From an uncultured Erysipelotrichaceae bacterium (GTDB lineage Bacteria; Bacillota_I; Bacilli_A; Erysipelotrichales; Erysipelotrichaceae), in NCBI GenBank assembly GCA_949744505.1, contig CATJXY010000040.1, positions 1 through 56,929 on the forward strand: a DNA stretch of 56,929 nucleotides, in the 5' to 3' direction. The position numbers were made by a program, and so were the translations under genes. The notes under the pieces were generated by a model. It was given only the letters and a program-made list of their open reading frames with translations, made no database searches and was not told the DNA's origin. This document shows, in pieces, positions 55,723 to 56,929 of the stretch (positions are counted from its first letter, which is position 1; each line of letters opens with the position of its first letter).

Positions 55723-56106
55723 TTATTTAATTTCAATTTTCCATAATCCATGAAGATTACAATATTCATAAGCAGCAATCGCTCTTTCACCATCACCTAA
55801 CACAAAAGTTGCTTCTGGCTTCTGATTCGGACTTAATCTTTTTTGATAAATTCCTTTATCCGTTTCAAGTTGAATCAAAGAAATCCAATGATTATCAAGC
55901 ATCGGATGTTCAACACTTCCAACATTTACTTTAATCTCATTTCCATTTTGAATGACCAAAGGCATATGTTTTTCCAATGCCCCTTCACTTTCATTTGCCA
56001 CCAATTCATTCATCGGTTGACCACAGCAATACAAAGGAACTCCATGATCTTCAATCATTCCAACAACATTACCACATACCTTACACACTAAAACTTTATT
56101 ATCCAT
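55723..56106 (-). CDS. dfx: Desulfoferrodoxin / superoxide reductase
   Basis: The 127-residue protein has an N-terminal desulforedoxin domain (CKVCGN and CC, centre I) and the catalytic centre II with EKHMP, VEHPMLDNHW and CNLHGLW supplying four His and one Cys. It reduces superoxide without making oxygen, an oxygen defence of anaerobes. AGGAGG precedes the start and a TTGACA box (56168-56173) lies 62 bases upstream. It is monocistronic. Confidence 0.97.
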   Translation of the reverse strand: MDNKVLVCKVCGNVVGMIEDHGVPLYCCGQPMNELVANESEGALEKHMPLVIQNGNEIKVNVGSVEHPMLDNHWISLIQLETDKGIYQKRLSPNQKPEATFVLGDGERAIAAYEYCNLHGLWKIEIK

Positions 56107-56194: not shown

Positions 56195-56764
56195 CTAATC
56201 ATCTTCAAAAACGATTTTCTTAAGTGTATGTTGTTCAATATCAGATTTAAAATCTTTCTTACACAAAATTATAACATTTTCTAACATTTCTTTTTCTTTA
56301 CTTTTAAATTTGCTTTTAAGGTCGTTGGCAATTTTTTTATACAATTCTGAAAATGAACGATTATATAGAATAAACATTCCTGATTTATAATTATATTTTT
56401 CGACGAAACAAACTAATTTATCAAAGTCATCTAGACATTTATTATAATAAATCTTCCCTTTGACTTCTATGACCATGATGTTATTGTCCATAGTTCCTGG
56501 CTCATGAAAAACAAAATCCGGATTTTTTCTATTTGATTCATTAATTTCCCAATGCCCTCTTTTATCAATTTCTCCATTCAACGAAAATGATATTTTCTTC
56601 ATTTCAATTATTTTACGAATTTGATGATATAATTCATAGCAAAATACCCTTTCTCTTATTATACTTGCTGACTCACAGGCAATATTTATCTGATAATAAT
56701 TTTTTTCAACATTATTTAATCCGTTCTTAATAACATCTATGTAAAAATTTAAGTCTTTTTCCAT
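56195..56764 (-). CDS. Uncharacterised protein with PD-(D/E)XK nuclease signature
   Basis: I do not recognise a named family. The 189-residue protein has the pattern of a PD-(D/E)XK nuclease fold: Glu44 in the first helix (FCYELYHQIR), Pro-Asp at 82-83 (NPDFVFH), then Glu100-x-Lys102 (MVIEVKGK), with a strand order that fits. It has no other domain, is AT-rich and stands next to a probable CRISPR array. A defence or mobile-element function is possible; it could also be a non-catalytic relative. Confidence 0.6.
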   Translation of the reverse strand: MEKDLNFYIDVIKNGLNNVEKNYYQINIACESASIIRERVFCYELYHQIRKIIEMKKISFSLNGEIDKRGHWEINESNRKNPDFVFHEPGTMDNNIMVIEVKGKIYYNKCLDDFDKLVCFVEKYNYKSGMFILYNRSFSELYKKIANDLKSKFKSKEKEMLENVIILCKKDFKSDIEQHTLKKIVFEDD

Positions 56765-56832
56765 GCTTTATCCCCTCGTATTTTCCATAAAAATAACTCT
56801 TTTTATACAGTCTTTATAACCATATCCAAGCA

Positions 56833-56929
56833 TCATAAGTGTAGCAAAATAATTTAGAGTAGCAAAACGATGGAATTAACTAGAGGAAATGATTATCTGT
56901 ATAAGTGTAGCAAAATAATTTAGAGTAGC
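56833..56929. CRISPR. Left edge of a probable type II CRISPR array
   Basis: A 29-base sequence beginning ATAAGTGTAGC occurs at 56835-56863 and again at 56901-56929, where the window ends. The period of 66 fits a 36-base repeat plus a 30-base spacer (about 56869-56898). The complement begins GTTTTGCTACTC, in the style of type II repeats, and the leftmost copy differs in its outermost two bases, as terminal repeats often do. Only one spacer is visible, no cas gene is in the window and subtype is unproven. Confidence 0.65.

Follow-up and report, generated by a model that had tools for sequence, protein, structure and literature searches.

What a lone nuclease-like gene does at the edge of a CRISPR array is the question raised by this locus. 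The window, that is, the whole stretch of DNA that was analysed, comprises 56,929 nucleotides from an uncultured Erysipelotrichaceae bacterium and corresponds to an entire contig (C40), so that the array runs off the assembly at position 56929. A preliminary description of this DNA placed a 189-residue protein with a PD-(D/E)XK nuclease signature between a superoxide reductase gene and repeats resembling an array, and regarded it as either a defence gene or an effector associated with the array. The reading that we favour, and that we consider probable, is that the gene belongs to a mobile family of auxiliary restriction-type DNases of defence operons, that the window carries an orphan copy of it, and that the array is a separate element. 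The relevant features of the window are the following:

55723-56106, minus strand: gene of 127 aa in the open reading frame list, whose product is presumably superoxide-reductase-like.
56195-56764, minus strand: open reading frame of 189 aa with an ATG start, coding for a stand-alone PD-(D/E)XK (restriction-endonuclease fold) protein according to the frame itself, the model, structural matches and conservation.
56766-56777, minus strand: Shine-Dalgarno-like stretch GAGGGGATAAAG directly 5' of the ATG, as read from the sequence.
56833-56868, minus strand: last CRISPR repeat (gene side, putative trailer end), matching 34/36 of the consensus and differing at two terminal bases, from repeat comparison.
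56869-56898, minus strand: 30-nt spacer, with no exact IMG/VR match and chance-level phage matches.
56899-56929, minus strand: second CRISPR repeat, 31 of 36 nt, ending at the contig end, from repeat comparison.

The position of the gene between the reductase-like frame and the repeats was confirmed, and so were the open reading frame and the four residues named in the preliminary description. Glu44, Asp83 and Glu100 are found in 82/82 aligned rows, the window's own included, and Lys102 in 80/82, the remaining two having one X and one E. R37, E38, R39, C42, Y43, R50, E65, D67, K68, D113 and Y126 are near-invariant in the same 82 rows, giving the family signature RERxYCYELYHQxR ... GExDKxGH ... 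PD ... IEVK. The patterns used for retrieval spanned two stretches, at about residues 37-44 and 63-71, where selection has therefore inflated the apparent conservation; D83, E100, K102, D113 and Y126 lie outside these patterns and their conservation is independent. The window copy is full length, has no stops and keeps intact all 21 of the conserved family residues checked. Only C42 of its five cysteines is conserved in the family, so a Cas4-type iron-sulphur cysteine cluster is absent. Neither the window protein nor six relatives had a significant match in Pfam or NCBIfam, and PADLOC had none for the window protein and L012. PHROGs returned marginal matches only; the best one for the window protein, to a tail-fibre profile (E 0.0032, 16.9 bits, residues 4-126), was taken as chance.

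Relatives of this protein are widespread but patchy. A genome scan with a four-row alignment recovered 107 relatives, from which 80 loci were retained, and a scan of viral contigs added 3 further members. Altogether, 96 loci had a match and 82 were used for the tree, which omitted re-fetches of the window gene (L001, L006, L007) and of the G089 copy (L002, L047), an identical Rhizobium copy (L089), three remote members from the same order with their re-fetches (L003-L005, L013-L015) and two truncated copies (L011, L097). Record titles assign the members to many phyla of bacteria and to several lineages of archaea, Asgard archaea among them. At 1e-3, matches were found in 5/97 relatives and in 5/315 genomes of the order, the same five order genomes in both scans (the window's own, G089 and those of the three remote members), and a profile search at 1e-10 matched 2/392 sampled genomes of the phylum, namely its own and that of one remote member. 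The remote homologues (L003:1294-1887, L004:1327-1815, L005:1201-1758) keep ER, PD and E-x-K and have no CYE (Glu44); as judged from these motifs, they form a sister family. We propose that the family, unnamed in the libraries searched, moves horizontally.

The preliminary description had called for structure prediction of the nuclease fold, and the AlphaFold2 model bears it out. The model (pLDDT 93.6, pTM 0.90) was built from an alignment of 70 family members, that is, 70 of the 82 tree rows, with L047 replacing L012 and without L008, L009, L052, L056, L059, L063, L076, L077, L090, L091, L093 and L098. Its elements run as follows: helix 38-55 (with E44), strand 61-64, strand 84-87 (D83 just before it), strand 95-102 (E100 and K102 at its end), helix 107-123 and strand 126-134. 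This order, together with the residue positions, is that of the PD-(D/E)XK core (alpha-beta-beta-beta-alpha-beta), with E44 in the first core helix. The absence of a partner domain was also correct; the 189-aa model is a single domain with no separate sensor domain. In VIA-align, the top match was BglII (Z 10.0 over 142 residues, 3.5 A), followed by OkrAI (9.9), BamHI (9.6) and BstYI (9.5). All of the best ten rows are type II restriction enzymes, with Z 9.1-10.0, 128-150 aligned residues and 7-14% identity, a margin that is real but modest, as models with no clear match typically reach a best Z of 7-8. Foldseek alone gave no PDB match at E <= 0.001 (best 2.2e-2), and its weak matches include many restriction enzymes, NucC and EndoMS. 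The only viral fold library entry matched at E <= 0.001 was a viral protein of 146 aa that is uncharacterised, and the family profile hit only unrelated sequences of solved structures (E 0.25-0.92). Residue conservation and the predicted model thus support a PD-(D/E)XK nuclease fold. In this superfamily the acidic residues bind metal and the lysine takes part in catalysis. The protein would then be a Mg2+-dependent DNA endonuclease in which E44, D83 and E100 bind the metal and K102 assists hydrolysis.

The neighbourhoods of relatives indicate where such an enzyme may act. The midpoint-rooted tree groups the window gene with 17 others in a clade of 18 rows (support 99/99). Eight of its 17 clade-mates have BREX, DISARM-like or type I restriction-modification (RM) genes at most two genes away, and six (L012, L021, L022, L023, L026, L029) directly adjoin a BREX or DISARM-type core gene. 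The arrangements are:

L012 (genome G089; same contig as L047): brxA, brxB, brxC, nuclease gene, pglX, Dsr2-like gene.
L021: BrxC/PglY, nuclease gene, PglXI, SLFN_AlbA_2, BrxHI.
L022 and L023: brxA, brxB, brxC, pglX, nuclease gene, pglZ.
L026 (DISARM-like with PglX): two PglX genes upstream, DrmD helicase, nuclease gene, Mrr.
L029: nuclease gene between two pieces of PglX.
L028: HsdS, nuclease gene, DUF3800.
L024: HsdR, YgjP-like metallopeptidase, nuclease gene.

The family gene is thus found at three different points of BREX operons. In L022 and L023, the genes next in order (685 and 688 aa) are candidates for brxL by position only. With start codons picked mechanically, the nuclease gene overlaps at least one defence gene or lies within 25 bp of it in L012, L021, L022, L023, L028 and L029, and these genes therefore look co-transcribed with their defence neighbours; the downstream gap in L022 is 108 bp. 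No BREX or RM gene was near the other nine clade-mates in the available flanks, some of which are short contigs. Among them, L042 has an SLFN_AlbA_2 protein nearby, L019 an integrase-core gene and L018 apparently metabolic genes (by eye), L016, L020 and L025 have short contigs or unrelated genes, and L098 is a viral contig.

Several details of these loci were recorded in passing. A Dsr2-like SIR2 protein (L012:13488-17000, PADLOC E 1.7e-114) directly follows pglX in the G089 BREX operon. In L029:3-3775, pglX appears split into two frames that match the L012 PglX over residues 146-861 and 868-1152, and the nuclease gene lies 18 bp from one piece and overlaps the other; either an insertion broke pglX or this is a working split methyltransferase. 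A DUF3800 gene occurs within two genes in three clade-mates (L017:10614-11744, L027:356-904, L028:1850-2725) and is a possible recurrent partner of the nuclease in the window's clade. On Rhizobium plasmids (L009:1-10368, L010:468-8279), a relative follows genes for ThiF, PD-(D/E)XK and UvrD-helicase proteins. The L009 cluster also has a multiubiquitin gene, the L010 relative is unannotated and was missed as an open reading frame, and the L009 protein is identical in another Rhizobium (L085).

Outside the window's clade, neighbourhoods are mixed and many copies stand alone by unrelated genes; those in defence contexts include the Rhizobium plasmid copies and L041, which follows an AriA/OLD-like ATPase and also lies downstream of a PglX fragment. 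PADLOC matched 248 families among 110 adjacent proteins, all from outside the clade, and 96 among 102 proteins at a distance of six genes, a set that did include the clade. This only suggests an enrichment of defence genes beside family members, as the tallies count families rather than proteins on unmatched sets. The preliminary description had looked to conservation beside CRISPR or other defence genes; the BREX, DISARM-like and type I RM neighbours of the window's own clade support the latter, and a link to CRISPR is not supported. In our favoured reading, the gene would be, in many genomes, an extra gene of modification-based defence operons (BREX with PglX or PglXI, type I RM, DISARM-like), where it would most likely serve as an auxiliary or back-up DNase acting on unmodified or invading DNA. 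The enzyme is probably an oligomer like those of the BamHI type, and in BREX or RM operons the partner machinery would control it.

By eye, no methyltransferase was recognised among the near-side open reading frames of the window, whose contig ends within the array. One PglX and one PglZ model found no match in the bacterium's own genome; an auxiliary role is thus inapplicable here to BREX of that type. The genes next to the left of the reductase-like gene are presumably Mrp- and MurT-like. The reductase-like gene is present in 48/77 family genomes, and 29 other loci that carry it had neither Mrp, MurT nor the nuclease gene within about 1.5 kb or less. In the absence of a PglX or PglZ match, the window copy would be either a self-sufficient single-gene system or an orphan. 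We favour the latter, an orphan copy with its own putative ribosome-binding site; the presumed trailer end of the type II array lies 68 bp away on its upstream side. Array and gene would be two defence elements in one insertion-tolerant spot and not one system. A bolder reading, possible but tentative, sees a plug-in nuclease family that docks on several BREX types, type I RM and DISARM-like systems and can even lie between separately translated PglX halves, and takes the window orphan for a working, partnerless single-gene unit, possibly expressed by read-through from the array.

On a different view, the protein would serve DNA repair or recombination as a nuclease akin to EndoMS/NucS or Hjc, would play no part in defence and would occur in defence operons by chance. 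The many copies outside the clade that lie by unrelated genes, archaeal ones included, and the appearance of EndoMS among the weak Foldseek matches speak for it. However, placement with overlaps or near-overlaps in BREX and type I RM operons of unrelated phyla, and a very patchy distribution, make this view unlikely.

We also regard as improbable that the gene is the orphan enzyme of a BamHI/BglII-like type II RM system whose methyltransferase has been lost. The best structural matches are all of the BamHI/BglII type and align over most of the chain, but identity to these enzymes is low, the relatives examined share no consistent two-gene R-M arrangement, and the BREX and type I RM loci comprise several genes and have methyltransferases of their own. 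In addition, an active sequence-specific restriction enzyme without its methylase would be toxic, which counts against this explanation.

The gene could also be an inactive remnant drifting beside the array. Its GC content (25.1%) is the lowest of the 57 called window frames of at least 120 aa (mean 34.1, sd 3.1), and it is an orphan in a genome with no PglX or PglZ model match. The intact frame and conserved residues, however, render a remnant quite improbable. The AT-rich composition of the gene also fits recent acquisition.

The array deserves separate treatment. The repeats do form one: a 29-nt exact repeat at a spacing of 66 resolves into a 36-nt repeat with one 30-nt spacer. On the minus strand the repeat reads GTTTTGCTACTC..., and it is 32/36 identical to that of a relative, G030, which has 9 and 8 copies at a period of 66 on two contigs, the first adjoining cas9-cas1-cas2. 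The order in G030 is cas9, cas1, cas2, a 269-aa gene in the csn2 position and then the array. As the 269-aa gene had no NCBIfam match at 0.001, type II is assigned without a subtype. The G030 array extends in the GTTTTGC direction, leaving the cas genes behind it. If the window array is arranged alike, it would be transcribed on the minus strand, with its leader and cas genes beyond the contig, and the nuclease gene would lie at its trailer end; the two altered bases of the end repeat would also fit a trailer end. The last repeat ends 68 bp upstream of the nuclease ATG, and gene and array share the same strand. A scan of the interval between them for terminator-like sites and consensus promoters found neither, and transcription of the array may therefore continue into the gene.

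The spacer had no exact match in IMG/VR viral contigs, and its matches to phage records were at chance level (E 0.6-8 among the matches listed, the best 20 of 50). The exact repeat was absent from viral contigs, and no other copies of a 30-mer of it were found in the own genome at <= 3 mismatches. In this genome, contig C52 carries at its edge the first 116 aa of a Cas9 (L100:3-350), and a search of the genome for Cas1 found none. The best repeat-antirepeat duplexes beside this cas9 (about -17 to -24 kcal/mol) are at scattered positions, and no tracrRNA for the window repeat could be assigned there. A hairpin-rich, tracrRNA-like region upstream of the C52 cas9 has no clear pairing with the window repeat. 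The C52 cas9 is possibly part of a second type II system.

The link between gene and array was evaluated from both sides. A 22-mer periodicity scan of 83 other family loci (L016-L098, 11 of them shorter than 6 kb) gave no convincing array. Flags in L017 and L020 proved on inspection to be whole-unit tandem repeats, and that in L050 marks an unclassified AT-rich repeat whose two copies are 84 bp apart and lie some 9.5 kb away from the gene; L010, L044 and L086, missed by the gene caller, had no array either. Conversely, the repeat pattern matched 10/315 genomes of the order, the window's own included. Eight stretches were taken from seven of the nine others (G048 and G301 left out): two from G030 and one from G258 are arrays, G282 has two copies, and G185, G002, G216 and G162 have a single copy each. 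None of these eight stretches carries a family gene, and two of them are array trailer ends with ordinary genes beyond. Since the 83 loci showed no convincing array and the eight repeat-bearing stretches no family gene, we conclude that the position of the nuclease beside the CRISPR array is most likely incidental; closeness to an array is no evidence of CRISPR function. In four related genomes, lone CRISPR-repeat-like 24-mers (1-2 mismatches) occur with no array in the stretch (L153:7896, L154:7496, L155:6198 and L157:2398), and are either relics or single-repeat elements.

Thus, of the two roles offered by the preliminary description, that of a defence gene agrees with the eight clade-mates beside defence systems, and that of a nuclease serving the neighbouring type II array as effector or accessory, for example through read-through co-transcription, adaptation or crRNA processing, is highly improbable: the shared strand, the short distance and the lack of a terminator-like or consensus promoter site in between would suit it, but it is opposed by both surveys, by the position on the trailer side when cas9-cas1-cas2 of G030 are on the leader side, by the absence of a Cas4-type cysteine cluster and by the location of the genome's own cas9 fragment on another contig.

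How does this family of putative auxiliary DNases compare with known systems? BamHI, BglII, BstYI and OkrAI are its best structural matches; identity in these alignments is only 7-14%, and no linked methyltransferase was seen on the near side of the window. The window family has the classical E-x-K motif, whose lysine is replaced by other residues in BamHI and BglII. NucC, Can2 and Card1, which are nucleases activated by cyclic oligonucleotides, belong to the same superfamily, but the 189-aa model lacks a separate sensor domain and their VIA-align Z values against it (about 6-8) are below those of the type II enzymes. Gated nuclease-protease pairs have been described in the text of Tuck et al. 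2025 (PMC12799240) as recurrently acquired by Hachiman, AVAST, Lamassu and DRT. As with these pairs, unrelated immune systems would have taken up the DNase gene of the present family time and again; the nuclease in that account is of the metallo-beta-lactamase superfamily and works with a protease, whereas no protease partner was noticed for the window family.

The closest parallel is with BREX. Its apparent lack of a nuclease has been a long-standing puzzle, and PglZ is reported mainly as a nickase, according to the text of a recent survey (PMC12839542). The same text describes PD-(D/E)XK restriction endonucleases, stand-alone or fused, as the commonest auxiliary effectors in BREX (Rakesh & Krishnan 2026, PMC12839542). 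Like these, the family is a small protein with a predicted restriction-endonuclease fold that lies in or by BREX core genes in 6/17 clade-mates. Unlike them, the window copy resides in a genome with no detected PglX or PglZ, and the family also occurs in type I RM and DISARM-like loci. Outside its supplementary lists, the text of the survey names no family with this signature; the motif string was not found in the literature searched, which contained no recognisable description of the nuclease family beyond that survey (PMC12839542). For BREX, this family provides a small candidate auxiliary DNase with one clear signature. Altogether, auxiliary restriction endonucleases of BREX-like systems are known, and what is new here is a family whose tested members matched no model in the libraries searched.
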